Shown here in pieces: positions 6,576 through 51,344 of a stretch of 64,000 nt of DNA. The stretch's first letter is position 1; the number at the start of each line of letters is the position of its first letter. This DNA is from Agroathelia rolfsii (lineage: Eukaryota > Basidiomycota > Agaricomycetes > Amylocorticiales > Amylocorticiaceae): positions 3,445,001 through 3,509,000 of the forward strand of contig JABRWF010000005.1 of NCBI GenBank assembly GCA_018343915.1, written 5' to 3'. The position numbers and the translations under genes are program-made. Below the pieces are notes generated by a model, which had not been told where the DNA came from, made no database searches, and saw only the letters and a program-made list of their open reading frames with translations.

Positions 6576-8446
6576 ATGACTTCGATTGCTTATCTTCATA
6601 CTAGCCCTAGTGCTACTAATGCTTGGTCTGTTTACTTGCCGGAATGGCTTCCTTTAAATACTCATGCATATTATAATATCTGCATTCGTATTCAGGTATT
6701 CGACACAGTATACGGCTCTCGCCGGAATCAGTAAGTTCAAGTTACAAGCTCTCATATAATTGTGCGGCATGCGATACTCAGATGCTTTGCACTTGTTAAG
6801 GCATTCTTTACTATGAATATCTTCTCACAATATCAATGGAGATTGAAAGATTCTGGACGCGTGGCATGTCTTGGGCCGCCATACTGTTCTTTTTAAATCG
6901 CTACCTTGTTCTCATAGGCGAAGCGCCAACCCTTTGGGAGTATTTTTGGTCTTCCCAGGACATTGCATGGGATGAACACGTGCGTCAAAAGTACTTCGCT
7001 CTTTTGACAGCAATGCCCTAACCAGCCCTACAGATGTAAGCCCGTCAAAAAATGACATATATTAGATATGAAGCTGATACCTTACCGCCGGGATAGTTGC
7101 TCCAGCTTAGTGCATTTTCATGAATACTTCTCCGTTTTCGTTCAACTCGTTTCCGGGGGTGTGTCATTGAGTCCGCCCTATTTCTCCAATTAATGTTATA
7201 CTCATAAATATTTAGTCATGCTAATAATGCGAACATATGCTTTTTATGGTCAAAACCGTAAGATATTGATTTTACTTTGTGCAACGGCAATCGCTTGCAC
7301 CTCTGTCGGATGCGTATGTTTTGAAACTATTTCCTTGTGACATTTCCTGGTAACATAATGCTCACAGTGGTCCGTTCTGACGGGAGCTTCTTCAAGCCAA
7401 AACAACCAGCTGTTGTTTCCAGGATGCAGCTATGCTGTGGGTAGAACAGAGTGTGTTTTTGCATTACATTGTTCGGTGTCCTTGACTTACATTTTGTGCG
7501 AACTAGAGCAACACGTATGGAAGGTTAATTTTTTAGACCGCTCCAACTAATTCATATATTACAGATCTATTAATTGCATGGGCTGGGGTTCTGCTCTTCG
7601 ATAGCGTGGTAAGTGCCCAGCATTAAATGCAACCGGCCATTTTGTTGTCATATTGAATCGCGACTAGATATTCGTCTTGACACTTTATAAAGCCATCGAC
7701 TCATCTCTTGTCGCTCAATCAAGCCTTGTTAGTCGTCTTGTCAAAGACGGTGTGTAATCTCTGTCAGGAATTGATGGTTTGTGGGGCTAATCTGCCTTAG
7801 GTGCCATGTACTTTGGGTAAGTACTTTGCTCTGATTGGATCGTAGTATAACGAGACTGACCTCAACAGAATTATGACACTTGCCAACATCTTCAACGTGT
7901 CAACATTTGCCGTACGTTATATGCCTTATTATTTAGTCTTTGATATGTAGACACTTATGCAATTTTTGAATCAGGTTGCTGAGGTTGGAATTTATAATCG
8001 TGATGAATTTTCCTTAATAATGAAATATTTTTCAGCCTGTTTCCCGAGGATTCGGAACCTCCCTCGCAAACATGTCAGTCAGATTCTATATCTATACCAT
8101 GTTTTCTTACAACTTCTTTCTAGATTATCTTCCACTCTAATATCCCGATTATACCTCAATTTACGTGATCCTAAACTCGACCATATTGGACAAGAGCACA
8201 CTATTGGACTTGTAACAACCGTCGGCCCATTCACAGCAGCTACTGATAGTGGTGCTGGCGTTTTCTCTACAATTCTTCTAGAAGAAGAAAGCATAGAGTT
8301 GTCAACAATACAGGATGCTCGAGATGGTAAATATCAATCTCTTGTTGTTTTATTCCCTGTGATAATACGGTGTACAGGTGAACCTTGACTTCAATTGTTT
8401 AGAAACGGATGGGTATCATAGCCGCCGCCGCCGCCGCCGCCCGTGA
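6576..8446 (+). CDS. DUF6533 seven-helix membrane protein, tandem copy 1
   Basis: Sixteen exons: 6576-6625, 6696-6730, 6801-6979, 7034-7035, 7097-7158, 7216-7313, 7368-7450, 7507-7514, 7565-7608, 7668-7749, 7801-7816, 7869-7911, 7975-7983, 8036-8073, 8124-8326, 8403-8446. They sum to 996 nt (331 residues). The N-terminal DUF6533 block is clear: ILYYEYLLT, then LFFLNRYLVLIG. It is followed by a Cys, the helix ending MLIMRTYAFYGQNRK, the extracellular Cys segment FPGCSYA, LLIAWAGVLLFDSV, and the C-terminal LISRLYLNLRDP. The family is a large, functionally uncharacterised group of basidiomycete membrane proteins. Fourth, eighth and thirteenth exons are only 2, 8 and 9 nt and recur at the same sites in the neighbour copy. 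The last intron (8327-8402) is the least certain; without it the protein ends at 8388. With it the tail is poly-Arg from a CCG repeat (8421-8440). Confidence 0.85.
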
Positions 8447-9989
8447 TGGAGAAATATATTAATCAGAGATATAATTCCAGGCCTACATTGATCTCCGCTT
8501 GAAAAATCGTCCAAAACCATCCCGGTTGTGGCTTTTGTTCAGTGTAAGATAGCAAATCTAACAGACTTGCAATTAACCATGAGATCTATGAGGTCCTGGC
8601 TCCTGAAAGTTACACTTTGGTCTGCATAACATTACCGTAGGCCGACTTAAAGTTAGCATTATAAAGTCCTTCATTTTCTTATCAAAATCCCCATGGCCGC
8701 CCGTAATAACAGAGTAGCTCAAAATCACTTTAGCTTCGAGCCAGAGTTTGGGGTCAGGTTATGCGTTGTCATGCATTCAAGCTATTCAAAAAGAGAAGAA
8801 AAAATAGTAGTCAGGTGGCAGATGCAAATTTTCATACGTAAATTAGGGATATGCTGGTTACTGATGCGTGCTAATGTGCCATGATCGGATCATGAATCGC
8901 GATGTCACTCGCAGTATGAGTGCCAGGTCGTAACTATACCACCCCTTGACAAAGTCATTATCAACGTTACTGGTCAAATTATATCTCGAAGTATCAGATA
9001 TATCTCTTCGTCATAGATCACTGAAAATAACTACCGTTAGGCGCAAATAGTTTAGTGGCTCTTGTGCTCAACGTAGGCTTGGCATGTTGCTGATAGCAAT
9101 CGGTCGATTCATTTTTGATCACTAGTAAACTCGTGGACTAATTCAGTTCCTGTTCTGTGCCTCGGGCCTTATGGCCCTATGGCTTCACTGTATGTGTTAG
9201 AAAACTCAAAATGTCTGAATGTCTTCTGAATCATCTGAAACAGGCGCTCAGACATACTCGTGGGTTTACACACTTAGTAAGCGGCCACTCAGCGCTGGGT
9301 CTCAAATGCTTGGATAATGCCAAATGTTTATACGACTCGGATGTGCGATCCTCGGAGGGGTTTTCAAAATTGGAGCAGTTCTGGATTATGAATTCAGATA
9401 CCTTCTCGTGACTAATACCAGTAGTATTAAATGGTTTCGATTTGTTGACCTTTTCGGTAGTTTGTTTTGTTTTAAATATTACCAATTATGACTCAAGTTA
9501 TGGGATACTAGTACAGGAAATTAATTGATTTAGAATCATGGATCAATCGAGCCTCAATAGTGCATACTAGCCGCTGATACAGCTGCAAGTCCTGTGCGGC
9601 ACAATTGCATCATATTGTCTGGCATGCGCAAATGAGTTGCCTAGCTACTCTAGTGTTACTTACATCTTGCTCCTGACGATCGAAATGTGTATCCTCAGCC
9701 GGGCTCCGGCGTTAATGTGAAATTTACCAAGGAATTAACTGCAATATGTGGGTATGATCATATGGCACACTGATGGATTGATATCAGCACTAACTCCGAT
9801 ACGATCGTTCGGAGCTGAACGAAGGAACATCTGGAAAAACATGGTCACCCGGGGTCTTATAAGCCCATGTTGGCTTAGTCCCCTGTTCGCCTCGAGGATC
9901 CCCGTCCTTTTACCGCCGTCCTTTCGAGGCTTATAGCTCAAGCATGGTTTTGTAACTGCTGCAACATACGGCTTCCTGTTTCCTTGGTC
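8447..9989. other. intergenic between the tandem DUF6533 genes
   Basis: 1.5 kb without a supportable gene on either strand. Short frames (for example 8693-8884 and 9157-9411) do not resemble proteins, and no third DUF6533 copy could be recognised. Confidence 0.45.
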
Positions 9990-11935
9990 ATGGGCAACCC
10001 GTTTGTTCTATTTCAGCAGAACACTAGTGCTAGCCAACCATGGTTAGTCCATATTTTGACGTTTTTCCGTGTAAAATTCCCCTTTCCCTCTCTATTTAAG
10101 CGCCGTAGATCTGTCGGTGTGAAGTAGTTGCTAACACGCCTGGCACTTTATCCCAGGTTTCTAACGCAGTGTACAGCCCTCGTGGGACTGAGTAAGTGTC
10201 ACTTTACCCTCAATCTGTTCAACCCCTTGGATTCATGCCAATTTGAAAGCTATCCTTTATTATGACTATCTTCTGACGTTCCCCGCCGAGTTCGATCTCT
10301 TCTGGAACCAAGGAATTTCATGGGCATCATTTTTCTTCTTTCTAAATCGTTATTTGGTCTTGTTCGGTCACATACCAACAATTTGGCAATACTTCTGGTT
10401 GTCGACGAATATTCCTTATAACCAACATGTAAGAAAAGTCTTGACTAGCATCGGGCATGGAAGTGTATTCAACTGAACATTCAAACAGATGTACGTTCTC
10501 AACATAGTTTCATTTCAGTCAAAGCTGCAACGCTTTGATTGTCAGCTGTCACGGCCTATCCGCGTTTCATCAGTACCTAGCCGTTGTCGTCCAAGCAATT
10601 GCTGGGAGTAAGTCAAAATTTTCAACATCTGACGTGAAGGATCTCATCTCGAATACAGTCATGCTTATAATGCGAACCTACGCCCTCTACGCTCGTGATC
10701 GTAGGGTCCTAATTTTCCTGTGTACTGTGGCCTTTATTGGGATTGCAATTGGCTGTGTAAGTGGCTTGTTCTTGCCTACTAAACGTTCTGATCATCCTAG
10801 AGCATTATACTAGTGGTCCATTATGACCGAGCCTACAGACAACTTTCACTCGCCATTCGAGGGTTGCCGCTATCCGACAGATAGAGAAGAGTAAGTCTTG
10901 TTGGCCGGGTCTAATGCACCTATTAATGTCCTTTTTTCGTAGAGCCGTCCGTGAGTAACACCAACTGAACAAATGGAAAGAATATATCGTCACATAGATA
11001 CAGATCTTATCATCGCATGGTCGACAGTAGTGGTTTTTGATTCTATTGTGAGACACTGTTTGTTATGGTATTTCCTTTATTTCCGTCCTTCTAATCGCTA
11101 CCTGATAGGTCTTCATTTTGACCGCGCTAAGATCTATACGCATGTTTCGTGTACTTCAAAGTACTCTTGTCACCCGCCTTATGCGAGACGGTAAGCTTCG
11201 AGCTATTGACCAGACAAAGGACAATCAGTGACACCACTGTTTTCTTCTACAGGGGCCATGTATTTTGCGTAAGAAAATTTATAATATTAGTATCTGACAT
11301 AAATTCTTATTGATCGGGGATAAGTATCATGTCTCTTTCTAACATTTTTAACATCTTAACCTTTGTGGTATGCCTTTTTCCCATTAGCATTTCATATCCT
11401 GATTCTTATACCCTTTTTTTGCCAGTTTGCTCAAGTAAGGCCTATGGCCCTGTCAACTCAGAATACAACAAATTCTCATTTTGGTTCTTGTATAGCCCGA
11501 GGCACGAGGGTTCGGAACATCGATAACAAACGTGTTAGTCTCTCCTAAATCAAGTAACCCATATCAATGACAACTGAACTGATACATCATTCCCCCCCCT
11601 TTGACCCCCTTTTCCATTTTTACAGTTTATCATCAACGCTAATTTCCCGCCTATACCTCAATCTGCGCGACCCGGCATTGGAACAACAGTCCACGGACAG
11701 AAATTCGACGTCCCTGATGACCATCTCACAGCCGTTCCATGCTATCTCTCCCGCCCAGTTTCCGTTCCCGGATATATCACTCGATGAGGAAGGTGGCGGC
11801 GGTGGTGTTGATATAGAGCTGCAGTCCATACCCGTCGCGAAAACCTCTGGGGTTTACGTGGATGAGGCGACGTTTGGACGGGCGCGAGAACGTAGTGTTC
11901 ATTGGGATGGCTTGAACAACAATATCACCCCGTGA
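9990..11935 (+). CDS. DUF6533 seven-helix membrane protein, tandem copy 2
   Basis: Fifteen exons: 9990-10042, 10157-10191, 10250-10428, 10489-10490, 10546-10607, 10659-10756, 10814-10890, 10943-10950, 11004-11047, 11109-11190, 11253-11268, 11325-11367, 11426-11434, 11496-11533, 11626-11935. The sum is 1056 nt, 351 residues. Twelve internal exons have exactly the length of their counterpart in the copy 3.4 kb upstream, including the 2-, 8- and 9-nt ones. Key segments: ILYYDYLLTFP, FFFLNRYLVLFG, MLIMRTYALYARDRR, IIAWSTVVVFDSI, NIFNILTFVF, LISRLYLNLRDP. The cytosolic tail is longer and more acidic than in copy 1 and diverges fully from it. The start MGNPFVLFQQ is the only ATG in frame with the DUF6533 block. 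A tandem duplication followed by divergence is the simplest reading. Confidence 0.9.
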
Positions 11936-12197
11936 TGATGCATCATGATGATCATTGACTGGGATTTTCATTTTCATCTTCTTTTTTTCTTGGCAGTGTT
12001 TTCTTTCTTTATCATGCTGATAGAGAGGACATTTCATAAATTTGTAGCTTACATGATTGGTTGTACTTGTATTATACTCACATAGATCCCATGGTACGCG
12101 GAAAATTGTGCAATTGAAAATCATATGAGTCATTTCAGTCCAAGCTATTATTATGTGCTCTTTCCTTTCGCCAGTAAGCATAACAGCTTACACTATC

Positions 12198-13913
12198 TCA
12201 ACGGCCATAATCCTGATCCAAAATGAGGTGCGCCTCTACTGTACCATTCTCATACCTAATCCATGTCTCTAGGCCATCCTTTATATCAGTGGAAGGAAAC
12301 ACGATGTTTCTTACGCCGTGACCCCAGGATGGCGTACCGTCGTAGCCACCGTATCCCGAGTGCTTGTCAAAACAAAAGATGACTTCCTTAGAGGGTTCAC
12401 GGGCACACCATTCATTTCCGTGGTCTAGAATATCATATTGGGGTGTCACAAATAGTAAAAGGGAGAATTGGAATTATAGCCTGGGGTGCGTACCGTGACC
12501 AGATATAACAGCGCGGAGGTTGACGATGTGTGAATTGAGTGCGTCCCAGAAGGGGTCGTCCGCACCTGCGTCATCTGCAGAAACGGTGGCTTGTGCAGAA
12601 CCAACACCGAGATAGTCCTCTGGTGGGATTATATATATCAAGCACGATCATCAAGGAGAAATCGGAGGGGTGTTTACCATTCAAGCCCGGGTTCTTTTCA
12701 GGATTCAAGTGGGGCTGAACGTCCTGTATGACATGTCTATCTCAATTCTTCAATTAGTTCCACATGCGGCCAGTAAAGGAACTTATCCAGCGTACGGAGG
12801 AATATGAACAAATGCAAGGGCTTGTCTTTCTGACGCCGTTCCCCATACTTTCTCCATCTCAAGGGTCTCACGGGCAATCCAGTCGGCGACGGAAGCGTCA
12901 ACCCAGTCTGGTACTGGTTTAGAGTCCTTGCCTGCAGTAAAGCCACCTAAGGAAGAGGATCATGCATTGGTCTCCTAGTAAAGCTACTCATATAAGATGT
13001 ATACCTCGAGAGTCAAAGAACCACAGAACGAGAGCGGGCGAAGCAGCTAAAATTTGGAGTCAAGATTTCAATATATAAGACTCATGATAACCATGAGGAT
13101 ATTTGTATGCCCACCATCTTTGGATGGGTACACCTACTATTTGATTAGATTACGTCAAATAATGACATGAAGTGTGTACTCACCGGTACCCAATAAGTGC
13201 CTACCCCGTTTTCATTTGCACCTGGATATATGCGCGTGTAACTTAGAGGACAGATAACTTGTTCACGTATAATTTCTTCTAAGTGAGTAATGTTAACTTG
13301 GTTATCGTGATTCTAAAGTCAAAAGATGGCATAAGTATATCAGTCATAAATCCATAGAAAATAGCATACTCCGTGAACAGAAGAGAAGTGCACATGTGCG
13401 TCATTAAGCGGTCTCATGATTTCGTTAACCAAAGACGTTGAATTCTCACGGAACGTGTCTGGAGGAAATCAAGAGAAGAGCTTTTTAGAAAATAAAAATG
13501 TGGGATAATTATGAGGTAGTATGCAGACTTTCGCCTGTGATTAAGTCTCCATTAAGGACACTGGAAATATGTGTGAACACTTGGGACTACATTGGAAAAC
13601 AGGCTAAACAGACGTAGCCATACACATAGTCAGGCTTCTCGTCTGCCAGGATAGTCTTCATAAGTGCTATGGAATTGATGTCTTGTAGAGGACCCCAGTC
13701 ATCCCAGGGATTTTCACCAAAGTGAAGATCGGAGAAGACTGTGATCTTGAAAGTGCCATCTGGTCGAAAGACATTGCGAGGCTTGGTAGGATAAGGATCA
13801 AAAGAAGTGGACCAATGCTTTTGTGCACTCGGAGCAGCCCTAGCCGCATGTAGCCAGCCTAGCAGAGTAAAGACGGAGAGACGCAGAAACAATGGTGATG
13901 GTGGTAGTACCAT
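12198..13913 (-). CDS. Dcr2-type calcineurin-like phosphatase, secretory signal
   Basis: Ten minus-strand exons: 13624-13913, 13529-13560, 13370-13458, 13184-13312, 13115-13133, 13005-13046, 12796-12946, 12678-12736, 12494-12619, 12198-12424. Together 1164 nt, 387 residues. MVLPPSPLFLRLSVFTLLGW is a signal-peptide-like start. Every metallophosphatase motif is present in order: FSDLHFGE (D-x-H), LNGDLITGE (GD), HGNHDN, HIPPHV and GHGN/KHSGYGGY. The WGPLQD and WFFDSRG blocks are those of the fungal phosphatase family that includes yeast Dcr2 and Sia1, and the length is normal for short family members. Yeast Dcr2 dephosphorylates the unfolded-protein sensor Ire1 and acts in the cell cycle, but which member this is cannot be said. 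An upstream in-frame ATG at 14078 exists but would bury the signal peptide. Confidence 0.93.
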
Positions 13914-14164
13914 AGCAAGTACAGTAGTAGCCTGAGAGCCTGTCAGTGCCCGGTAGTGAGCATGCCATGGTAACGAGATGATGAGTTGCCTTGTCGGTTG
14001 TGTGATTACATAAGACGGGGCCCATGGCGTCACAGTGAGGCCATTCTGGCTTCCCGACGACTCATACGACCTTACCAAAGCCGATTCTTACAAATGCTGT
14101 AGTTCTAGTACATAATACATAATGAATTTCTTTATCCGTGCTGAATCAGCCCGCTTTGGCAAGG

Positions 14165-14172
14165 TATAAATA
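14165..14172 (+). promoter_or_regulatory. TATA box of the CmcJ-like gene
   Basis: TATAAATA lies 85 bp before the ATG at 14257. It is followed by a purine-poor leader ending in CTGCTAACATAATGGC. Position and sequence fit a regulated, TATA-type core promoter. No mapped transcription start supports this. Confidence 0.55.
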
Positions 14173-14256
14173 CATGACCTCATAGATCCTCCTGTCAGCA
14201 TCTCAATCTTACGACTCATACACCACTGAAAAACAACCCACTCAACTGCTAACATA

Positions 14257-15229
14257 ATGGCTATTGCTGCTGTACTTGCTCCCCATGATGTTCAGACAAG
14301 CTTGAACTATCTGGACGTTGCTGCTCTCGGCCAATCCCGTCCATATTACTATGTTAACGAGCCTCCAACCGGCGTACCCAAGACGAATCTCCAGGAAGAG
14401 CCCCATCCCGCAACTGTTCACGATGTACGTGGAAAGGAGGACACAGTCGGGCTGGACATTACCGGTTTCCAGTTCATTCATTCCCCAAGTGTGGAGAAGG
14501 ACTTTACGGACGAAGATAAGGTCAAAGAAGGGTATTATAAAGAGGTTGAGGAACTCTTGAAGAAGGAGACGGGTGCCAAGAGGGTCGTCATCTTTGATCA
14601 TACTATCCGGTGAGATAATACACCATTCGTGAACATTATTGAGAATGTCTAACTCATAACTATCAAACAGACGCACAGACGAACAAGACACGCGCGAGGC
14701 AGCCCTCAAGAGAGGACCTGTGGTAAGTTGACTCACTCATGATGCACCACTCTTATTCTGGACTGACTTTTACTTTTCCTCCTACTAGCAAAGAGTACAT
14801 GTTGACCAAACTACCGAAGCCAGCATTGCCCGTGTCCGTTATCATCTGCCAGAGGATGCTGACCGCTTGCTTAAATCCCGTGTGCGGATCATCAACGTAT
14901 GGCGGCCTATTGCCAATCCTGTCGCACACAGCCCCCTGGCTGTCGCCGACTATCGATCGCTCAACGCATCCAAGGATCTCATCCCCACGGCCCATATTTA
15001 TCCCGATCGAGAAGGTGCAACACTCAGCGTACGGCACTCGCCTGAACATCGGTGGTACTATCTCTCGGGCCAGACACCGGAAGAAGTGACTCTCATTAAG
15101 TGTTTCGATTCGCGTGAAGATGTGGCGAGGTTGACACCTCATACGGCGTTTCTGGACAGTACGAGTCCAGCAAATGCGCCTCAGAGGCAGTCCATCGAAG
15201 TTCGCGCGCTCGTGTTTGATGCCGAGTAG
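14257..15229 (+). CDS. CmcJ/NvfI-like (GA4 desaturase family) oxygenase
   Basis: Exons 14257-14609, 14671-14722 and 14789-15229, 846 nt, 281 residues. Family hallmarks are visible: KRVVIFDHTIR before the first intron, QRVHVDQT at the start of exon 3, RVRIINVWRPI, DLIPTAHIYPDREG, EHRWYYLSGQTPEEVTLIKC and a terminal SIEVRALVF. The family covers CmcJ of cephamycin synthesis and fungal asaB-like and GA4 desaturase-like proteins, thought to be Fe(II)/2-oxoglutarate-dependent or related oxygenases. His and Asp of HVDQ are candidate metal ligands. It usually acts on a secondary metabolite; the substrate here is unknown. A TATA box and a short leader suggest inducible expression. It converges on a WrbA-type quinone reductase. 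Confidence 0.93.
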
Positions 15230-16113
15230 AGATATTTTAGAACGATACGAGTCATGTTTGATTCATCGTACTTTATCATTGTATTTCTAGCGTATTTTAT
15301 CCACATATTGGGTTTCCTGATATTTGTATGTACCTATGTATTATGCATGTTATTTTTTGTTTTCGGACCGATGAAACACGCACTAGTGGGTGATTTTGCG
15401 CTCGTTCAAGCGAGTCATCAACGCCGGTTGATTATCGTAATGATTTGATCTTGACCGTAGGCTGATTTTGCATAATGCATCGATGATAGCTCAAATCGAA
15501 TCGAGACTGACGTTCACATTGACTGTAAGCGAAGTCGAACGTTGAACTGCCACCAATATCGCACCAATATCGCAGCATTGTCACGTAAGATCGTTCAAAT
15601 GCCTGGAGATATGATCCCTGCTAGTCGTTTTTCCTTCTGACCTTCAGGTTTCAAGTGCCGGTACAACGTGTCCTGTTTGAGCTCATTGTGCAACCATGTA
15701 AGCAGAACGTGATGGATCCACCACAAGTGCATAGATCCACATCGTAAGCCTAAACAAGTTATCCCGATTGGTTCGTGATCAATATGGCAGTTTGCCAACA
15801 ATTTCTCTCGGAGAATCAATGGGATAGTGGCAGTCTCAGGGGCTGGCTATATGCGGATAAAAAGAACTTGATATGAATAAGTCGTTATCAGAGGAGTAGC
15901 TCCATACCGGTAATTGTTTTACTAGTACACCAAGCACCTTTCAACCGTATGTTTTATCACACATTTTACAAGAGAAAGTTGGATCGTTTTTTTTTTTACT
16001 ACATTATAGGATATATTTTCAATTACGTGTGCTAAAAATTCCAAGAGTACAGAGGGAAAAGGGAAAATATTCTGATTACTTTTTAAAATTCTCATCGTTC
16101 TCGGGTTGATCAC
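15230..16113. other. convergent intergenic region
   Basis: Separates two converging genes. A 75-codon minus frame (15595-15819) shows no family. AT-rich towards 16 kb, with a run of ten T near 15990. No gene supported. Confidence 0.45.
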
Positions 16114-21859: not shown

Positions 21860-24058
<2,199 letters not shown>

Positions 24059-25345: not shown

Positions 25346-28300
25346 TTGTCTAACGCGATCACTCATCGGAACAAGCAATGGGCTCTTTTTCTCCTTCCTC
25401 AGGGCGATCTGTTGCTCCATGAACTCCTTGATTATCGTATGCCGCATAATGGCGATATGCCCTTGTTTACACTTGCTTTCCCCGGACAAGAAGTCTTGAC
25501 GAATATTTCCTATTCTCAGTTTGGGAAGTTTGTCCACCAGGTTGCTTATCTTATACGACCAGACCCTTTTACTGGAACCGACAATGAAGTTATAGCCATT
25601 TTGGCTAACATCGACAACCTTGCTTACCATGCACTCACTATGGGCATCATTCGGGCTGGATTCACCGTAAGATGAAATATTTCTCTATGATAAGATTTGA
25701 CTAATCTTATGCTCAGCCATTTCCAATGTCCCATCGTAACTCTGCAGCGGCCATTATTCACATGCTGCAAACCACTGGCTGTCGTCGCATCTTGGTCACC
25801 CCTGAAGGCGATAATAGTACCATGGATGCTCTTATGAATTCTATATATGCGGGATGCCCTACAGACCTTGTCCTCAGCATTGAATACATCCCATCGCCCA
25901 ATGTGTTATACTCTTACATAACAGGAACAATCCCTGAGAGTTCTTGGAAAGCATATCCACCAAAGGAGCGATACCCCGACGATACTTGTATGTATCTCCA
26001 TAGCAGTGGAAGTACGGGTTTCCCAAAGTCAATCCCTAGCACATTCCATATGATGCGTGCAGCAATGAATATGGGTGGGCCCTTATTTGCTGATCGCGTG
26101 TTTTTATTCATTTATAAAGCATATTTTATGCATTCTACAGAGTACTTTGCAGATCGACTAACCATGGATCCGCCTCTTCAGAAATTTGGCGTTTATGGCT
26201 TACCTCCTTTTCATGGATATGGTAAGTAACTACCCCCCACTACTTGAGTTTTCTCGCTTTTACCGATTTCAATTGCTTGCAAAAGGATCTATACAGAGCT
26301 TATGGGAGCCCTGGAGACATGTTTCGGCACTCATATGCTTCCGCCAACTAGTATCCATCTAGATGACAATAATATCGTTACTTCTTCGTCTTGGGCACTT
26401 CCAGCTATACCGACATCAGATGCTATCATCAATAATATCAGAAGAACATGCCCTGAGGCTATCGCAACCGTACCTACGTTTTTAAATGACTGGGCAACTG
26501 AAGGGAATGAAGAAAAGCTGTCTACGCTGAAAGAACTGCGCATAATCGTATTTGGCGGTGGTCCCTTAGCATTTGACAAAGGCGAGTTCCTTGTTCGCCA
26601 AGGCCTCAAGCTCAGGTGCTCGTATGGAGGAACTGAGGTGGGTATCCTTTTCGGCTTTTTAGAATTATACTGAATGACTTTATAGTTCAAGATGGCTTCT
26701 TGCTTGTGGTTCCCAGAGGATCAGGAATGCAAGAATTGGAATTATTTCCGTCTGAGCAAACGTGTTTATGCATCACTAATTCCCCAAGAAGAGAGTGATG
26801 TGCCAGGAAACAGTGCTAACACGTTCGAGATAAGGCTTTTAGTAAGTAACGACCATTTTATTAAATCAGCTCCATTCAAGGGATTTGACAATAATTATAT
26901 GTTATGCAGCCGTGTGACACTCACGGCGTGTCTGTTTACAACTTCACTACCGAGGTCGAAATAGACGGAAAAATAGAAATAAGGAATGGATATGCGACCT
27001 CAGATTTGGTGCAGCGCCATCCAACTAAAGAAAATCTCTGGAAAATCTCTGCTTTACTTCATAACATGATGCCTTAAACAACTGTTAACTATCCTAAACA
27101 GTGTTGGTCGTCAAGATGATGTGCTCATCCTCTCTTCTGGCGAAAAGACCGTACCGGCTCCTATCAAAGAAGCGATTGTTCAAGACAAACGCATTCGGAG
27201 TGCCATTATTTTTGGACGTGGCCGTGACCAAGTTGGGGTGCTTATTGATCCCATCACACATGAGCAAGATAATGTCGCCTTCATCAATGATATATGGCCG
27301 ACGGTTCAAGCTGCCACCGCGAATTCCCCAGATTTCAGTCGTATCTTCAAGCACATGATTTTGATTGCGCGACAAGATAAGCCTGTCTTGCGGGCGGACA
27401 AAGGCACTTTGAAGAAGAAAGCGACAATTGCCTTGTATAGCGAAGACATCGATGCCTTGCAAGTACCTCACTATTTTCTCATGAACTACAGGATCTGATC
27501 AACTTTCATGGTCAGGTATGCTACCGCAGAAAAGAATCCTCCTATTATAGAACCACCAAAGAGCTGGTCCGAGCAAGACGTAAAGTCGTGGTTACTGGAC
27601 CATGCTGAGAAACTGAAATCTTCGTCTGCTGCGGAAACAAGACTGGATGTCAACCGTAGCGTCTTTGAACAAGGATTCGACAGTCTTAGCGCAACATTTC
27701 TGCGAAATCAAATCGTCTCTGCACTGCGCTACTTCGATTCGTGTTCCACGTCATCTGTACCGTTAACGAAGGCACTCCACTCAACGTTGTGTTCTCCCAT
27801 GCAGCGATCAGCGACCTTGCTTGCTACATCTCCAACATCACCTCCTCGGGCGATGTAAATACATCAAGCGAATCCATCATCTCCGAGCGAGTGAAAATTA
27901 TCGAAGAAACTATTGCACAGCTTTCTGCCGGCTTCCCCAAGCAAAGAAGGAATGGTCCCCTCAATATGCCTGTCGTGGTGCTTCTCACAGGTACTACTGG
28001 CAGCCTTGGATCATTTCTGTTAGCACCACTATTGCATAATGATAAAGTAAAAAGAGTGTATGCCTACAACCGGCCTGGAAGGAAGAACTTGAAAGAAAGA
28101 CAGATCGAAGCGTTTATTGATCGCAATCTTCCAGTAGATCTATTACATGGAGATAGAGTCGTCTTTGTTGAGGGTGACGCCGCAGCCGACAAACTTGGAT
28201 TACCGCCTTCACTTTATGAAGAGGTACGCTTGCTAAATAAGATTTCTGAAAGCCTTATTAGATTCGCTCGTCAGTGACGGCTGTGATCCACAATGCATGG

Positions 28301-29268
28301 AGGCTTGACTTTAATCTCGCATTATCATCATTTGAGCCACATTTGCTTGGCACAAAGCATCTTATTGAACTTGCTCTCTCTTCGCCCAATGCCAATTCCA
28401 TCCGATTCATGTTCACATCATCTATCGGTATCACGAAATCATGGCCCAAAGACAAAGGCCCATACCCTAAAGAAATGCAACATGAGGCTAGATATGCTGT
28501 AGGAGGCGGATACGGCGAGGCCAAGTACATATGTGAACGTGTATGTGATTTTTGTTACCGTTGTATTAGAGATAATTTATAGTAATCTTCATTCTATTCA
28601 GATCATTGAGAATAGCGGCCTACAAGCAACTTCCTTCAGAATCGGTCAGATTGCTGGACCTGTTCCTAACGGAGCTTGGGCTACTAGCGACTGGGTTGCG
28701 TTACTTGTAAAGTCGTCGATGACCATAGGCGCATTCCCAGACTTAGCTGGCACAACGGCATGGCTGCCTGTTACGGCTGTATCTGCTGCTATTATTGACG
28801 TATTGCTCAGCTCCGATCGGCCTCCTTTGGCATTGAATATAGTACACCCACGTCCGCTCAAGTGGACAGCTATCATGTCGGCAGTGCGTCAGGCGATCAA
28901 AGACAATGTCAAAGCAGCAAATGGAGCCGAGCTTCCACTGATCCCTTTCTCATTGTGGTTTGCCCAGCTTGAGAAGGCAGCCCAAATTACAAGCGAAGAA
29001 ACCTTACGCACTATGGTGTGTCAATACTGCTTCTCATGCCCCAAATACGAATCTTACCTGCTTTAAAAATCCTATAATAAAGATTCTTGACTTTTTGCGT
29101 AATTTTTTAAATGAGGATGATGGCGAGGGTACTGAAACAACAGGTCCCGTCCTCTCAACCGAGAAGATGCAGGCCCTGAGCGAGACTATTCGTACGCTTC
29201 CTGCGATTGGTGATGAGGACGCAAAAGCTTGGGTTAGGTACTGGAATTCAAAAGGCATGTTTGACTAG
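25346..29268 (+). pseudogene. adenylate-forming reductase (A-PCP-R), damaged
   Basis: Segments in order: 25346-25666, 25717-26221 (possibly with an intron 26076-26141), 26297-26637, 26686-26841, 26910-27046, 27102-27458, 27516-28223, 28262-28540, 28602-29015, 29083-29268. The adenylation domain shows YLHSSGSTGFPKS, YGGTE, NGYATSDL and GRQDDVLILSSGEK. The carrier domain has EQGFDSLS, with the phosphopantetheine Ser. The reductase domain has LLTGTTGSLGS (NAD(P)H loop) and YGEAKYICE (catalytic Tyr/Lys). Such enzymes activate and reduce a carboxylic acid to an aldehyde. Lesions: no in-frame ATG for the first segment; the donor after NLWKI reads CT, not GT, at 27047; and a one-base frame slip lies between about 27730 and 27775 in the carrier domain. 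One intron is GC-AG. Probably inactive, unless these are sequence errors. Confidence 0.75.
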
Positions 29269-36606: not shown

Positions 36607-36647
36607 CTCTCTCTCTCTCTCTCTCACTCTCTCTCTCTCTCTCTCTC
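36607..36647. repeat. CT microsatellite, interrupted once
   Basis: Two long CT runs separated by a single A near 36626, 300 bp upstream of the RRM gene start. Confidence 0.9.
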
Positions 36648-40415: not shown

Positions 40416-40996
40416 GTTCGTTCTATTCCTCTCTCTCTCTCTTTAATTCTTAATTACCTTTTCCTTTCCATGCCTTGCGTTCTTTTCTTTTTCGCATGCA
40501 CCATGACCAAGACGCAGATGATACACGTATATGCGTTTTAGAGTGAGTTTCCCCGCCTGTTTGAGGCGATGTTATATTCTTTTTCCCTTCGTATTTTTGT
40601 TGCCGCTCGTACTATGATTACAGCAGTATTTCGCCCCATCAAGTAGTAATGATTATGTAAATACATCTCGATCATGTGATTGAAATATATGCGATTTGCT
40701 TTGAATATGAACTTGCTGCTTGAGACAGATATGGGGGTAATACGAAGCCTGATGCATTATGTGTTCTTGCGAGAATGTATACCAAACATTATAATCTCAT
40801 GATGCACAAGACGCCCTTTACTTTGGTATGTTACCGAACCAGAACAGGGATGATGAAGTGAAAAGGTTGATATAAGAGTCATTAAGATGGATTATGTCTA
40901 TAAATAATTTTTAAGGGGAGTGCATCGTCTAAACCGTCAACATCAGGATGAAAGAGCTATGGAATACCACAAGTGGAAAACCATTTGCGACTCACA
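40416..40996. other. convergent 3' region
   Basis: 3' ends of the RRM gene and of the mitochondrial ribosomal protein gene. A short CT run (about 40428-40442) follows the stop. No coding. Confidence 0.5.
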
Positions 40997-42669: not shown

Positions 42670-44955
42670 GGCCAAGAGACGAAATGAGCAGAAAGACCGG
42701 TCCTTTGCCTGAGCGACTTCAGTTTGAGAAGCCAAAATGTTGTGTGAAGGGTCAAGCGACTATGACAACCCAGAAAATTATAACCCCGGGTTGCTTCCGG
42801 GTTACTTCACTATAGCACACACCTTGGACATCTTGAACTTTCCATACCATGACAACACGGCTTACGGTTTATGCTTATATTTTCGTGCTGAAATGTCCCT
42901 ATCGTAACTAATCGCACCGTATTGTAGCCTGCAAGTTCGATTGATACGCTAGCCTACTCAAATTGGGCAATAACTGAATGATCGATGTTCCCTATCAATG
43001 GTCCTCGTCTTCCACCTACCAAAGCACTTTGGTGAAGGTACCTTTCACGTACACGAACATGAACAGACATTCTATACGCCTTTACCTATCCTTATTTAAT
43101 CCCTGGATTTCTCATAGGCTCACAACAATGCCAAAATGGGACTTTGGTCTCCCTTTGCTCAATTAGCAGCAGCAAAGACTTCTGCTCATGTACATAAACA
43201 AACCTTCGCCGTTGTACCAACGCCTTGCACCCCTCCGATTTCTTATTAAATGCATTCACTTTCAGCATTAAGTCGTGTAGATCATAGTTGAGTGGCATCG
43301 ACTTCCGAGACTACGAGCTTCTGTAGATCGATGAGATATAGATCGCCCTAGAAACTAGAAAGGTGTTCCTGTTAGAGAAATATCCTTACTATGAGCAAGC
43401 CCTCTTCATACACTGGTGTCTAGAACAGGCCCGCATTTTACTCCCCCTCCTTCCTTACCTGGCATGATGTAAATTACTGACAAATGTATGACCTAGTCCT
43501 AGGCGGTGGCTCTTATCATGCATTCTTGGCCCGTCCGACACTCAAGTATTGTGCTCTTCCCAGGAGGCGCCTCAGGCACGGGGAATTGACTGAAAAACGA
43601 TCCACGATGAAAAGTGCAGGTCGTTGAGCATGGGAAAGCACTACGATAAAATCGTGATAGAGGCGTCGACGGTTTTCGGTGTGAAAGCCGCCGAAGTTGA
43701 ATGAGGGCATGTTTTATTGCATCAACAATTAAGAGATAGGAATGTCTCAGTTATGTTACCAAGTAGCAGTTGATATTTACAGTTCCAGATGCCATCATAT
43801 TCGACACTGCGACCTACGTTTTCCTTGGTCCGGAACATTTATATTCATGATTGGTGCGGTAAAAATGATCGACGCTCAATGGGCAATCTTTGATACAAAC
43901 ATACATTTTATTCTAACCCGCTCATGGTTGGCAGCCAGTTATCGTAATGGGGCTGTTCACATTCTGTACCTGAGTAGTAGATGAAGCATGCATGAAGTCT
44001 TAGGCCTTAAACTCAAACCAACTCGCTTGGCTAAGGAACGCATTGGCTGTGCGTTCCTGATGACCTTTCAATTCAATGCTTGGTGTTTTGCAGCCAAGAC
44101 AGCCTCTTGGCACTAGAGGCTATATTCTACATTCAATCTCACAAATCAATCAAATATGGAGGTGATTATGACGATACCATCTTTATAATGGGATACTAGG
44201 AGTAGGCCGATTAATTGCGCCTGGTGATAGGTACAATTTCCTTTACCATGCCAATAATGCGCAGCTCCGTAAAATCATGCATGATTGTCTTCTGAAGAAA
44301 GTTTTCTAATATTGTAGCGTCCGAGTAACTCGGTCTGTAAGAAGTTTAGGAGAGACGGCGTTATTTCCCGTCAGTTTCCGAAACTGAACAAATGGGCTGC
44401 ACCCTATTCGTCCGTGACTCGGAATACTATTAGGTTCCGCATGTATGTTGACTGCACTTTCAAGACAGCTATGACCGTGAAGTGGAGGTCATAATTCGAG
44501 TGTACTCTCTTGGCTCCCAATATTTGTGGAGCGAACAATCTCTGCTAGCAGTTGCGATAACGGCACGATGCAACGACCATCAATACTTTTCAGCGACCTG
44601 GGTAACACAAACAGACTGATGAAGTAAGAAGATGCCAGAGTAATGGCGATGCAACTGACGGCGCCTGTGACTGCCGAGATAACGGCCCTGCGTTTGCTGA
44701 ACCCAGAGCAGGAGATCCGGGGTACACTCGGGTGATCGAGCAGCAGTAGCAGGAGCTGCAGCCCCTTTAGACGACGGAACGGGCTGACGATGTAAACATA
44801 GCAAATGGATCGGAAAAGGCCCCCTGAAGACAGAGAGAATGTGGAGAAACGTATAAAAGCAGGCGGTAGGGCGTGGCTGTGTTGGATGGATATATGCCCT
44901 CGACTAATTTGCTGCTTCACTTTGAATCTATCTCTTCGCACGAGACAAGAAAATC
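42670..44955. other. 2.3 kb without a supported gene
   Basis: Promoter regions of the flanking divergent genes plus about 1.5 kb of unassigned sequence. A 64-codon minus frame at 43516-43710 and a 150-codon minus frame at 44489-44941 have no recognisable motif; the latter runs antisense across the promoter of the next gene. Confidence 0.4.
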
Positions 44956-45642
44956 ATGAGCGCGACGCCCGGAACCATGACGCCCCTGCCACCACTCTCC
45001 ACTAGGACGTCATTCACCCGTGTCGACACAGACTACGAAGAGACACAGTCTGCTCTCGACGCTCTTGCTGCTCTTACTGCTGCTGTTGGAGAGCAGAGCG
45101 AAAGAATACCCTCGAGAATGTCTACAGCTGAAGAACAGCAAGATCCCCAGACGACGATCACCTTCCTCCTTGTCACTGGCAAGAGGAGGACAATGTCATT
45201 CGACCCTACTGCAAGCGTTGCACGGGTCAAGGAGCTCGTTTGGAATTCATGGCCTCAAGGTCTGCATTCGTTCTCTTTTTTTCTTCTCCCTCAATTCGCA
45301 TGAGCTAAGCAAGAAGCTGTGATATAGATTGGCAAGACGAGAGACCAACGACTCCCTCCTATCTGCGCGTCCTTTATCTGGGCCGTCTACTGCAGGATGA
45401 AGAGACGCTTGATTGTACGTACAACCTCTCCTCTTTTCGTGCACAAAGTCGACCACTGAGGCTTACTACTTTCTCTCTCTACAGCTCTGAATCATCCCGA
45501 TCCCACCCAACCGCTCATCGTCCACCTCTCAATTCGGCCTCAAGTAGAGCGCGAGTCCTCGTTTCTCAAACGTGGCTTCTCTCATGGCAGCGGCCCTGAT
45601 GCGGATGCCTCAGCGGGGCCTTGCTGCTGCATTATCTGTTAA
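44956..45642 (+). CDS. ubiquitin-like protein with C-terminal Cys tail (UBL3/MUB type)
   Basis: Exons 44956-45259, 45328-45414 and 45485-45642, 549 nt, 182 residues. After a Thr/Ser-rich N terminus the ubiquitin fold begins at ITFLLVTGKRRTMSFDP. It continues with VARVKELVWNSWP, SYLRVLYLGRLLQDEETL and LIVHLSIRP, matching the UBL3/MUB branch. The protein ends PCCCIIC, so the last four residues form a CAAX-like box with two further Cys before it, suited to prenylation and acylation and thus membrane anchoring. It lacks the Gly-Gly end of conjugated ubiquitin-like proteins. In animals and plants this family sorts proteins to vesicles or docks E2 enzymes at the plasma membrane; here the role is inferred. 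Confidence 0.88.
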
Positions 45643-48600
45643 TATGTCATGAATATATATTCATATGGTATGTTACATCTCATCTATCTCTGTTTGGTCT
45701 TTGCTAACTAATAGTTTCTCTTTCGGCCCCACATTTTCTTCGTTTTCATAGGCTAGGCTGAGATGTCAACGACTTTTGACGACGTATATACCTATGTGGG
45801 GATTGGAGCCTTTTCGCTAGTCCCCCACACTGATGACACTTGACTCACGCATTCCCCCTCACGTATTCCTCAAACCTCAAACACCTCCCCATCATACACA
45901 CGCACCCTCGCATACCTTTTGTCTCATCCCTCTTTGTACTTGTAGTAGCATTGCATTTTTTTTCATCTTCTTATTCTGCTTTTTCGTACTCTCTTCCGGA
46001 TGACCTTGTGGACGATTTCCAAGCGCCGATTCCCTTCCTACCCTTTCTTACTCGACCATCACCACTTTACCCGTTCCTCCTTCTGCATCCCCTCTTCGGA
46101 TAACGTGCTCGTGGCTCACGTTGTTTTCGTCCACCTGCTTGCCTAAGTTTTTTTCTTACGGCATGCGCATCACATGACCCAGCTGGGTTGTTATTAACGC
46201 AGTCTATAAATAACAACCCCATATACGTATGCACATACGTTATTCGGCGCCCTATTCATCCATCTTCTTTTATTGCATCAGATTACATTCTTCCTCCGTT
46301 CTGCATACCTGTCCTTGACCTCGCTTTCGCACTTTTTTGTTTTGGGTACATCGTCTCATCCTATGCGTCTTTCTAACCAATCGAATCTATTTTCCGGTTC
46401 TGTTTCAAGATTTTCTTTCCGCTTCTTACGCTTACCAGTAGCCCTTCTCTGGTGATTGTGCCTATTTCCTTCTCTTTTCCCCGCTTCTTTTCTGTTCCCA
46501 TGTATAATGGTATCGGCAAAGGGTGGAGGCGGCGCCTGTCTTTCTCACTCCAAATCAAATACAAAAGGTTCATCGATTCGTCTTTGACTTGACATATCGA
46601 CTTCAACGTTGCAGCGATTGTATGCGTACTCGCTGGACTGCCTTTCTTGCATGTGCATGTATACTGATTCTAATCATTCTATTCAATTTTCTATTACTGA
46701 TATCAATTGCGCATCTTTCTTCTTGTCTTTACTGTCTTCTTTTTCGCTTTTACTCCGACTGGAGGTTCTTGCTGTTTCAGAAGGCAAGAAGCTCCGGTCA
46801 TATGACGGTTTAGAAGATTACGCTAACCTTGATTAGGTGGGGAGTCAAGAGGAGCCTGTGGGCCCAACTACAGCTCGGCTCTCACTCATAATCAAACACA
46901 CTCGTGACTCGGGCATCACGCGAGAACGTGGTGCGCATATAGTTAACATCTAGGGTAAGCAAGCAAACTTAGCTGACTTTGACAACCAGATTTCGCCAAG
47001 ATAGGCAACTGGTTGTCGGAAACTAATGCCGATAATTTCGTTCATGATGTTCCTTGTGATTGCAAAGCTTTGCAGGTTTTGTTGCTCACAAATACCTGAG
47101 TTGTGTTTCGTAGAAAGTGGCGGTGGGAAGCTTGACTCAGAGATCAACGCCACGGTAAGGACCAGTTTTGTCCTACGCAACCATCAGCCCGAGAAAACAA
47201 TGTTTGTATAGGCATTTCATTCGTATCATTGCCAAGTCCCGAGTATGCCTGAGTTATATGATTGCAATGGTTTCTTTTCTAGGTTTTTAGTCCCAGTCTT
47301 TGACTGCCTGCCCTGCCCCTGGCCCATTCCGTAAGTCATGAGTACTGCCTGGACACTGGACATAAACACATGGGTATTGAATCCACACTAAGATATATCA
47401 GGGCTCAATTCTTTCGTGATAATCATTTTTTGCTTATATTATAAGTGAACCTGCGTCAATGTGGCGCCGCTGAATAATGTGTTAGCACATTCTATATGCG
47501 CCATCATCCTATCACTAATACAGGTCAGCTTGCCATCTATAATGGGATTGATAGCCTAAAACCAGGAATCCTGCTTTTTAATATTATGAATTGGTGCTAT
47601 AGTATGTCAGTGCATGCGCTTTATTGGTTCGTATGATATCCTCATCGACCGGATAGCCTTGATGCCGGTTTCTCAGGCTGATATACCCTATCGTATCACT
47701 GGTCTAATAACGGCAGTTATTGAGCATTATGGGAAAAGGCTAAGCGCTTTCTACTAAGAGAGGCATGATACCACATTGAGTATTGTCACTAAAGCGCGGG
47801 TCTAGGCTTGCAGTGCATCTCTCCTAAATCGCTCCATTTTTTCGCTTTTCAGAGCCTCATCTGCTACTCCCTCTCTGCTCAGCTGGCGAGTGGGAGATAT
47901 CTAAGAATCCCACCTGATTCTGAGAGCTGCCTTGACCCTACTGAGCCCACACCTTACATTGAGTCACGGCCTCGCTTAAACTGTCAGGCTACTGGAGAAT
48001 GATGGCATTCTTAACCATCTGCGATGCGTCTCTCCCACTGGTTTCTATTCGGCCGTGAATCGAAAAGTACGGGACACTTTTCTCCTACCTGTTCCCACAG
48101 CTGCTCTCTAAGTACAGGTTAAACAGCCTATTCAAACAACGATAAAGTGTAATATATATGTCTGCGTCTTTGATACTGAGTTATTGTCATAAAATACTAT
48201 GTGTGGTGTGGGTTGATGGGCTATTTGGAAATGCTTGGCTTGTAAATGGTTCCTCACCTTTTGGTTTATCGTTTCCTATATGTTTCATTTAATCATCCTT
48301 GACAAACTAGCAACTATTTGGCTTGTCGGAATCGTCACTGATTCTACCAATTGCTGCATTCCCTTATTCCTTTTTGTTGTTGTTTGCACTTCGAGTTACT
48401 ATCTAGACTTCACTTTCTGGGCATTTAATTTGTCTGATTCTCAAGAGCTTCTCTAACTCGATTCATAATTGTGGTTGTTTTCGAGTCGGTGATATCCTCT
48501 AAACTCATCATAATTTCCTTGTCTGGTATTTACACATTTTTTTTCAGAGCCGACTATTTCTCCCTTTTCTTTTTCGTATATACTTCGATTACAATCTTGC

Positions 48601-49331
48601 TTATCCTGCGTGGGCATTTGGCTTACTTTGCTTTATCGTGATCCATCACAATGCTGCTATTCTTGGTATCTTTATATATTATGTTAGCCCTGCAGCTCTT
48701 GGGAGGAAGGAGTAGCTTTGCAATCTGATTCTTAGTATATTTAATTCATGAATATTTGCCTTTGAATTTGTAGAACTCTCTGTAGTGAAGAAAGAGTACC
48801 TGAGTTTACCTTATGCGCGCTTTCGAACTGTACTCCAATCTACATATCATTCTCTTGCTACAGCAAAATATTTTCTTTGCATAGTTATTATTGTATCAGT
48901 AGCGCATACATTCAGAAAAACACGCGAATAAAATGAGACAAAAATAGGCGCTTAAACATATACTCTACACTAAATTCTTCTGGTCTTGCATATAACTCGG
49001 ATTGGTCTACCTGATTATCTCTGACTGGCTAGTGGCTGATTTGCAATGCACAAGAGTTTATATGTGATAACTGTTTTGGTATTATGCTTCACAAACACCA
49101 TTGTATAATCAATGACCGGTAATGACCACATTCTTTGCCACCACCCTGTTTGCTAGTTATTACTTTAGCATACACTTTATATTGATGATGTATGCCTCTT
49201 ATTCTTTAGCTTTGCTAAGATTTAGTTGTCATAACTCTATATACGTTTACATAACATTCACATCAAAATAGTAATCCTTTTTTTCCACAAGAAAGCGCAT
49301 ATCCAAAATAAAATTGGTGTTAATGAGTTAT
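45643..49331. other. 3.7 kb of AT- and pyrimidine-rich sequence, no gene recognised
   Basis: From 45,840 to 46,500 the plus strand is a pyrimidine-rich leader-like tract similar to that before the RRM gene, but no coding sequence follows. From 46.9 kb onwards the DNA is AT-rich. Frames at 46523-46813 and 48235-48456 are hydrophobic by composition only. Because a 17-exon gene sits just beyond in equally AT-rich DNA, further intron-dense exons could be missed here. Confidence 0.4.
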
Positions 49332-51344
49332 TCATAGCCAAATTTTGTTATCCACGTCAATTTCGTTCTTGTCGTTATCTCTAGGTTCTCCATCAACAAC
49401 ACCTCTTGCTATACTGTGATGAAGCTCTGCTTGAAAGTCTGGAGTAACTACTACCGGCCTAGGCAAGCGGGATAATTGGATCTCTGGTCGCCTTGTCCGC
49501 TCTTTTAATGAGACTTTGCGCAGATGAAGGATAAGACGGGAGCCCTATCACAAAGTATTTGAATAAATGAGTGTCTAGTCTAGTAACTAGGTTACTTGAT
49601 TGCTCACCGACACTGCAAATACGGCGGTATACTATCTTCATACATCTTTGAGTTTAAGTTATGATTAATATGTTAAAAGACGTACGGCTGTATCAGGCTG
49701 CCAAGATTGATTGGTAGGACTGGAGATGCATATGAGATTTCATATACTATAGTTATCACTGAGATAACTAAAGCCCATCAATTGATACTATAGGTGTTAG
49801 TAAATACATATTCTAGGATTAATATCTAATCGCACCAAAAATTCTAATAGAGAGGGGGGGGGAGGTTAGATGAAACCAAATTTGCTTTCATTAGAGCTGG
49901 TCAAAAATTTAAACTGACAAAGTAAGAAATATTACGCCATCATGCACAAATGAGGTCATCAGCGGCATTATAGATTCTTGACGTAAAATTTTGGATAATG
50001 ACATGTTTCCATTATCATCCCGACAGACATCAAGGAGACGATAGATTGTTAAGAAAAAGAATAGGCACACTAGGATAACGCTAGGAACTCTGCAGGAACA
50101 GCTTTTTAGTTTTCAATGTGAGATTATGAAAAAATCCAGACCTTAACCACATTATAATTACGGTTTGAAACCGTAAAGTGAAACAGTTAGATAATACATC
50201 AGTGTTAATGAATGGTGGGAGCTCCAAGAGTACATCCCGCAATGTAGTGACAGCCAAAATTGCAGGTACAAGCATTAACTGATAAAAATAAAGAACTATC
50301 ATCTTAGCATGGTTAGGTGCAGCAAGCATCAAGAATTACAAGCATACAATAGCAGAAGCTTTTATAGTTGTAAACTTAGATGACTTTTGAATAGAAATTA
50401 GACTATTACACACCTAAGTATATAGTATAAAGAAATCTTGTTACTACATAGGTAATTTAATAAGAAAGTAGCTTGAGTACTTGTGATATTTTATTATACA
50501 TACCTTTTGTTGAATAACCAAAAAGAGCCCGCAAACGTAGGAGAAAAATAAGGTTGACAACAGTTGAAAAGAACCAGGTAGTGCTTCTAAGGACAAAATT
50601 CAGGCATGATTCTGTAACTAATGCTTGATTACATACAATGTGTTATAATGCTGCCAGATACGGCAGCTTTATTTTGCAGAAGTGCAATAAAAACAGATAA
50701 ATCATAATGTATAATGTTTTGTTGTTATCTGCTTACAGCTAAAATACAAGTAAATATCTATAATATAATAGGCTCAACTTAATTGGATCAATTACCTCAA
50801 GAGTCATGTCCGGAGAGAACGAAACTAATATAAATAATATCAGTAATGCTAACATACAAAAAAGTGGTGTTTACCAAAGTTATTGAGCCTGATAAATATA
50901 ATTAGTAGGATGTCACCCTTAAGATGTCTCAAGACTTGTAGATATTACATCAAATTTATCAGTCCAAGATATCTTGTTATTAGATAGAGAACCTTGGGCA
51001 ATGACCAGCGTGAACTATAAATGACAATCCAAGTAAAACAACCCAATCTAGGTAACTCTAGATATTTCCTTACCGCCAAACCAGGTTGATCTATGGTATA
51101 TAGTAAGTATAAGTACCTATACATTAATCCTAGTTTAATCAAATATCACCTCTTCTCCAGATGTCAGGATGATATCCCACAGTAAAAATGCATTAGCTGC
51201 GACTTCAAAGTTGGGGGTTGAGAGTTTTTTATATGTTATTTGTTGCAGCAGGGATTATAGGGCAATGGTTTTCAATATACCTGCCAATATTTTGTTCCTT
51301 ATATCGAAAGTATAGGCTTCCATAATAACTTCTCTATTTGACAT
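49332..51344 (-). CDS. DUF6533 seven-helix membrane protein, third copy, 17 exons in AT-rich DNA
   Basis: Minus-strand exons: 51282-51344, 51150-51202, 51074-51090, 50949-51014, 50875-50888, 50796-50824, 50737-50738, 50637-50666, 50504-50586, 50414-50443, 50348-50358, 50142-50278, 49919-50089, 49836-49843, 49682-49767, 49608-49631, 49332-49544. The DUF6533 block reads AFLLWDIILTSGEE, INLVWRSRWSLPKVLYLITR over two introns. Later segments: CRIWQHYNT, FLLRLRALFGY, VPSVILVCLFFFLTIYRLL, SFVHDGVIF, SGSRLILHLRK, then an acidic tail. Eight exons are under 30 nt. One of them is a 2-nt exon (CT) before the conserved Cys, as in the two tandem copies. From exon 2 to the stop all phases agree. Exon 1 is in frame with two ATGs (51344, 51323), but its junction with exon 2 is off by one base. 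The N terminus is therefore uncertain. The family has no known function. Confidence 0.75.

Follow-up and report, generated by a model that had tools for sequence, protein, structure and literature searches.

How is the codon that precedes the conserved cysteine (Cys) of DUF6533 proteins encoded in Agroathelia rolfsii? The question is raised by a window of 64,000 nucleotides (nt), bases 3445001-3509000 of contig C5 in a genome of 37.7 Mb and 8 contigs, which contains three DUF6533 genes, here called A, B, and C. An earlier note had proposed that each of them carries a 2-nt exon, at the same place, in the middle of what would otherwise be a single intron. Spliced alignments across the family, comparison with proteins of other fungi, and counts of splicing signals upheld this proposal for genes A and B; in gene C, the letters are as described but the exon found no support. 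The reading favored here, to which we assign a probability of roughly 0.87, is that three exons contribute to the codon before the conserved Cys, which marks the start of the third helix, that the middle one, of 2 nt, lies between ordinary GT-AG introns removed in a set order, and that this exon is old.

The anatomy of genes A and B is laid out in Table 1, where the letters at the two exons and the sizes of the half-introns agree with the original description. Protein similarity was said to fix the reading frame on either side, and the spliced-profile alignments bear this out. With AT spliced in, gene B has an open frame of 335 amino acids over 14 exons, counted from the first placeable exon, and its product matches the DUF6533 profile (PF20151) at 2.2e-12 and 47.3 bits, above the curated cut-off of 24.1, which places it in the family. 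The gene A exon scores 38.5 bits against the same profile and the architecture of the gene matches that of gene B. Intron 1 of gene A contains a CTAAC branch-point match at 7018-7022, whose A lies 12 nt ahead of the final intron base; in intron 1 of gene B, the nearest match is CTGAA at 10473-10477, which does not conform to CTRAY.

DUF6533 genes are very numerous in this genome, many of them in tandem clusters, and the profile has 82 matches genome-wide. All 82 loci (numbered with the prefix L) were modeled in three rounds by spliced alignment to a protein profile, exon sizes being left free. The first profile, in which insertions were cheap, gave fewer 2-nt exons and preferred inserts at some loci. 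L023 and L077, whose second-round models had implausible introns, and L081 were excluded from the third profile; L077 and L081 regained a normal structure in round three and L023 did not. In the third-round models, 44 of the 82 loci, L077 and L081 among them, contain a 2-nt exon that separates the DUF6533 exon from the one that follows, and in each an exon of fewer than 3 nt is thus flanked by canonical GT-AG introns, whose sizes are ordinary (51-80 and 50-72 nt). The upstream exon ends in phase 0 in 44/44, the exon after the 2-nt exon begins N|TGY in most, and no stops occur in the models. As the split codon, TGG occurs in 16 loci, GGN in 7, ATY in 6, AGY in 6, AAR in 5, GTA in 3, and CGT in 1; none of the 44 has a stop there.

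Table 1. Features of genes A, B, and C, with positions counted from the first base of the window.
Gene	Feature	Positions	Strand	Context or basis
A	Upstream exon, encoding most of the DUF6533 domain	6803..6979	+	177 nt from the first matched residue; phase 0 at end (GAACAC); spliced-profile alignment
A	Intron 1	6980..7033	+	54 nt, gtgcgt...cag
A	2-nt exon AT	7034..7035	+	ACAG|AT|GTAAGC; letters and spliced-profile alignment
A	Intron 2	7036..7096	+	61 nt, gtaagc...tag
A	62-nt exon	7097..7158	+	Starts T|TGC; split codon ATT = I, then Cys
B	Upstream exon	10250..10428	+	179 nt; phase 0 at end (AACCAACAT)
B	Intron 1	10429..10488	+	60 nt, gtaaga...cag
B	2-nt exon AT	10489..10490	+	ACAG|AT|GTACGT
B	Intron 2	10491..10545	+	55 nt, gtacgt...cag
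B	62-nt exon	10546..10607	+	Starts C|TGT; split codon ATC = I, then Cys
B	8-nt exon	10943..10950	+	8-nt exon in 9/12 full-length models
B	16-nt exon	11253..11268	+	16-nt exon in 12/12 full-length models
B	9-nt exon	11426..11434	+	9-nt exon in 10/12 full-length models
C	CT, claimed 2-nt exon	50737..50738	-	TTAG|CT|GTAAGC; letters present, exon unsupported
C	Stretch resembling the L045 Cys exon and next exon	50505..50615	-	TESC...LLRLRALFGYSTK, Cys at 50604-50606; tblastn E=0.004, weak

At least 16 further loci have the 2-nt exon or a variant of it when the printed DNA is read by eye. AG-NN-GT stands in place in 11 of these (L009, L011, L017, L026, L033, L034, L035, L040, L046, L059, and L073), among which L059 has lost the intron 2 acceptor and L017, L033, L034, L040, and L073 encode a residue other than Cys at that position. 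In L035 and L046, an exon of either 2 or 5 nt may be used and the third round chose 5 nt, which is why they fall outside the 44. An apparent 5-nt exon replaces the 2-nt one in a sub-group comprising L047, L058, L060, and L072, and the model of L058 contains a stop. L039 retains a TG exon, but its upstream exon is two bases longer at the end, and the frame is therefore kept by skipping and broken by inclusion; this locus is either damaged or a natural switch to skipping. In the other 22 loci, no such arrangement was recognized by an inspection that covered part of the loci outside the 44, and in 8 of them (L012, L014, L063, L066, L067, L076, L087, and L088) the third-round model has the Cys and its preceding codon in one exon.

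The arrangement exceeds chance across the 44 paralogous loci. AG-NN-GT with both halves of at least 48 nt is found in 44/44 intervals, against 3.07 expected from dinucleotide shuffles, and the same pattern with a pyrimidine before AG is again found in 44/44 (1.91 expected). Since the loci had been chosen by the search itself, the search was rerun on shuffled intervals, where a 2-nt exon joining the same ends was returned in 10 of 176. In the real loci, models with the 2-nt exon led the best models lacking internal exons shorter than 10 nt by 0.4-59.8 bits. Among 14 close pairs of loci, AGNNGT is identical at 84/84 positions, compared with 81.8% identity in the intron bodies, and is kept in all 14 pairs. 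AG never abuts GT directly, two bases lying between them in 44/44, and these are therefore not zero-length recursive splice sites. The exon probably predates the expansion of the family in this genome.

Evidence from other fungi came from three protein searches, two of which used the best 120 of 320 and the best 120 of 310 matches, and which together gave at least 285 proteins; matches to the gene B protein were at most 49% identical. Two sets were aligned, one of the gene A/B type (167 proteins, with P0062 and P0063, of 517 and 701 amino acids, left out) and one of the L045 type (116 proteins). Proteins were treated as transcript-like if they came from jgi or lgn contigs shorter than 5 kb and kept their frame intact across the part that 13 introns interrupt in gene B, a status deduced from contig size and source and not from a label. 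The Cys is in place in every transcript-like protein: in the gene A/B type set (44/44) it follows a conserved position by 6-13 residues, and in the L045-type set (30/30) it follows another position by 21-23 residues. Genome-derived models behave differently at this junction, many public Agaricomycete models carrying inserts there or lacking the Cys. In 16-residue windows, up to 46/122 are abnormal in the gene A/B type set versus 1/44 transcript-like proteins, and 27/86 versus 1/30 in the L045-type set. Elsewhere along the gene A/B type alignment, 0-15 models are abnormal, the exceptions being 19/123 at the 9-nt exon and 25-28/123 in one loop, which may simply be variable; in the L045-type set, the figure elsewhere is at most 10/86, with its maximum at the 9-nt exon. 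The 9-nt exon thus forms a second, weaker peak of abnormal public models.

The residue before the Cys indicates how such models arise. In the gene A/B type set, it is Arg or Ser in 21/27 models with a long insert, in 15/80 genome-derived models of normal length, and in 1/44 transcript-like proteins, as expected for the first group if the AG of the intron 2 acceptor had been read as codon bases. The test is uninformative in the L045-type set, where Ser is usual in transcript-like proteins too. Val before the Cys was considered as a sign of a misread donor and was set aside (0/30 versus 13/79, p=0.018, in the L045-type set; 4/44 versus 18/107, p=0.31, in the other). A 2-nt exon would explain a systematic error in the public models of this large family, with roughly one in three of the compared genome-derived models abnormal at one junction. 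Sources of abnormal models include Armillaria, Mycena, Lyophyllum, Hypsizygus, Panaeolus, Trametes, Lactarius, Neolentinus, Athelia, Leucogyrophana, Suillus, and other genera, which span several orders. By inference from these proteins, the 2-nt exon is probably present in several Agaricomycete orders. In the earlier description the feature looked ancestral and selected, on the strength of the distant and diverged gene C; that basis fell away, and the claim now stands on the 44 paralogous loci and the transcript-like proteins of other fungi. In a tree of the domain region, which has few columns, many open forks, and a midpoint root, a branch with support of 97/90 joins eight proteins of other fungi to seven loci of this genome, each of which has the 2-nt exon.

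The two introns flanking the exon differ in their branch-point signals. CTAAY occurs 10-24 nt before AG in 22/44 first introns (2.3 expected under the null), in 2/44 second introns (2.1), and in 18/135 ordinary introns from these same genes (7.0). The corresponding counts are 27 (8.2), 5 (7.2), and 65 (23.3) for CTNAY and 9 (5.7), 21 (5.9), and 20 (17.4) for CTNAR, so the second introns lack the ordinary CTNAY signal and have CTNAR in excess. Among 29 chosen representatives, CTAAY was found in 14 first versus 2 second introns (p=0.0008) and CTNAY was rarer in second than in ordinary introns (p=0.003), p-values that are flattering because paralogues are not independent.

This asymmetry suggests ordered splicing, which could proceed as follows. 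With the upstream exon ending in phase 0, the 2 nt and a third base from the next exon (mostly of 62 nt) would complete the split codon. Both GT-AG introns, each of about 60 nt, would be recognized by intron definition and spliced out in succession. Intron 1 would as a rule be removed first: its branch point, paired with the internal AG, would prevent the upstream donor from using the far acceptor, and the two bases would be joined to the upstream exon. Intron 2 would follow, using a normal donor behind the two joined bases and a weaker branch-point signal. If the flanking exons are joined directly, the frame runs into a stop in the known downstream exons of 32/44 loci, none being seen there in the other 12; because such joining shifts the frame, inclusion of the 2 nt should be near constitutive. 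The suggestion in the earlier note that such exons challenge exon-definition models is weak: short fungal introns are taken to be recognized across the intron (PMC6616335), so exon definition is not needed, and a constitutive 1-nt exon of Arabidopsis was reported in 2015. What a two-base exon does constrain is the sequence in which the introns beside it are spliced out.

Several results pull in the opposite direction and have to be set against this reading. The stricter pattern YAG-NN-GTRNG is found in just 16/44 loci (0.2 expected), shuffled intervals yielded some exon of 6 nt or less in 32/176, and the shuffled score equaled or exceeded the real one in 9.1% of shuffled runs. The lead of the 2-nt model is below 6 bits (0.4-4.1) in 10/44 loci (L015, L016, L018, L020, L025, L027, L032, L044, L051, and L056), and the round 2 and 3 profiles were built in part from loci found earlier. 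For genes A and B themselves, in-frame models free of tiny exons exist, which either insert 3-12 residues ahead of the Cys or end the upstream exon earlier, so the assertion that the frame can continue only through the two bases was too strong; these models score lower by 0.8 and 7.3 bits, respectively, with the first profile, 11.8 and 26.7 with the second, and 8.5 and 15.9 with the third. The third-round model of gene A (L061) keeps the 2-nt exon and uses an acceptor 9 nt further on, giving a 53-nt exon and losing the Cys, and gene A was counted among the 44 with its second-round model. As for the splicing signals, no difference from ordinary introns was seen for intron 1 in CTNAY (p=0.41) or for intron 2 in CTAAY (p=0.53), and both donors are weaker than usual, with G at +5 in 41% and 24% of the 29 representatives compared with 85% of ordinary introns, a figure raised by the donor model. 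The tree requires 8 label changes (shuffled mean 22.8) and is therefore compatible with one origin of the exon or with several.

Those in-frame models, the narrow leads, and the public models with inserts give some substance to the view that there is no 2-nt exon and that a single intron uses another donor or acceptor, leaving intron-derived residues before the Cys. We nevertheless regard it as improbable: the inserts vary between models, transcript-like homologues have a narrow loop without inserts throughout both sets, and neither the AG-NN-GT in the middle of every interval nor the branch points before the internal AG would be explained. A single intron of about 120 nt with a noncanonical acceptor two bases upstream, its AG being read as part of AGN (Arg or Ser), would also restore the frame, and the Ser or Arg found before the Cys in 26/30 transcript-like proteins of the L045-type set is what it predicts. 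The remaining 4/30 have another residue, however, and in the gene A/B type set, for which the idea is contradicted, so do 43/44 (I in 21, T in 6, V in 4, and others); the internal AG-NN-GT is again left without explanation, and this possibility is very unlikely.

Decay deserves consideration because damaged loci do exist. L059, L039, and L058 are impaired in their intron 2 acceptor, frame, and coding sequence as described above, gene C looks decayed, and the two bases might by chance have restored frames that small indels had disrupted. That account, to which we give as little credence as to the noncanonical acceptor, is hard to reconcile with 44 loci that agree in codon, phase, and sub-intron sizes, with stop-free models, or with the retention of AGNNGT in all 14 close pairs. 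Stwintrons, in which an intron lies inside the splice signal of another and both are wholly removed, are known from fungi and likewise involve two short neighboring introns. Full removal would leave the frame two bases short here, since the upstream exon ends in phase 0 in 44/44 and the Cys exon needs two bases, and a stwintron is the least likely of the explanations weighed; the genes do not belong to that class. The 2-nt exon between two consecutively removed introns thus remains the preferred interpretation.

Gene C had been presented as the third case and was dropped as such. Its spliced-profile model stops at 50957, short of the claimed exon, and similarity to L045, from the single tblastn match that supports the region, places the Cys about 60 nt beyond the exon designated earlier. 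The exon chain originally drawn for gene C is therefore unsupported, not disproved. The claimed exon reads LCRIW, which may correspond to a C-R-x-W motif of other DUF6533 proteins. Gene C (51191-50505, minus strand) is AT-rich and diverged, with first-part exons of 42, 17, and 58 nt, a plan like that of L090 (45, 17, and 58 nt), and is probably decaying.

Exons of this kind are already known; what sets the present case apart is the size, the host group, the copy number, and the branch-point grading. The closest precedents are the constitutive 1-nt exons of plant APC11 and VPS55 (PMC4674806, PMC8831610). They too are sub-codon exons between canonical introns, missed by annotation, deeply conserved, and required for the frame, and their authors likewise propose stepwise removal by intron definition. 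They differ in having 1 nt and not 2 and in occurring in one or two copies, where a single genome here holds no fewer than 44 paralogous ones, with fungal introns of about 60 nt and a branch-point asymmetry; the plant exons also have direct RNA evidence, whereas the DUF6533 exon is predicted from genomic DNA and protein comparison. Of the features looked for in ultra-short exons, need of the bases for the frame is seen in the constant phase 0 of the upstream exon, though in-frame detours with extra residues exist, and long conservation is seen among the family members of this genome and, as far as proteins indicate, in other species. Among fungi, the accessible text on Phlebia radiata remarks on 2-nt exons in predicted gene models of this Agaricomycete; the remark names no family or conservation, whereas one homologous exon is traced here through a family. 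Small internal exons are also described in filamentous fungi for Phanerochaete P450 genes, the shortest of 6 bp (PMC1184071), and for Trichoderma Xlr2 (PMC11121469). Those exons are longer and are discussed as alternative, unlike the sub-codon DUF6533 exon, whose skipping shifts the frame. Stwintrons share with it adjacent short introns and consecutive removal but keep nothing between their parts, where the DUF6533 genes keep two coding bases. SNB1 of Coprinopsis cinerea (PMC10949477) is a DUF6533 protein with seven predicted transmembrane helices and a reported role in fruiting-body development, and a second paper (PMC8955403) also names DUF6533. The likeness to SNB1 considered here lies in the family and the predicted helices. 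No description of a 2-nt exon in DUF6533 genes was found in the open-access literature, insofar as its text was accessible.

The annotation fault bears on work with DUF6533 proteins such as SNB1. More generally, exons of one or two bases are a limiting case for splice-site pairing, and with at least 44 homologous versions in one genome, its rules (branch-point strength and spacing, donor strength, and base identity) become readable by comparison. A bolder extension, which we consider doubtful, is that the graded introns, with strong CTAAY in intron 1, weak CTNAR in intron 2, and weak donors, force the order of removal, that inclusion acts as a frame gate, and that the family could be controlled by the accuracy or speed of splicing. 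Such a regulatory use, if real, would leave a G-protein-coupled receptor-like family, here and across Agaricomycetes, open to control at one splicing point. A predicted model of a homologue appears to resemble a seven-helix receptor, with Ste2 as the best match in a second look.

The 2-nt exon is the extreme case in a family built of tiny exons. Full-length spliced alignment of 12 loci gave a common plan, the first part of which consists of exons of about 31, 164-179, 2, 62, 98, 74-86, and 8 nt; the second consists of exons of 44 and 82 nt, or a single one of 132-163 nt, followed by 16, 43, 9, and 38 nt. The 2-nt exon is present in 10 of these 12 models (frequencies of the other tiny exons are included in Table 1). 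The two without it, L010, with a single intron there, and L074, with the second half only, both have the exon in the third round. Elsewhere in the window, open reading frames at 22736-23809 (minus strand) and 25726-29066 (plus strand) presumably encode glucose-6-phosphate isomerase and pieces of an adenylating reductase.

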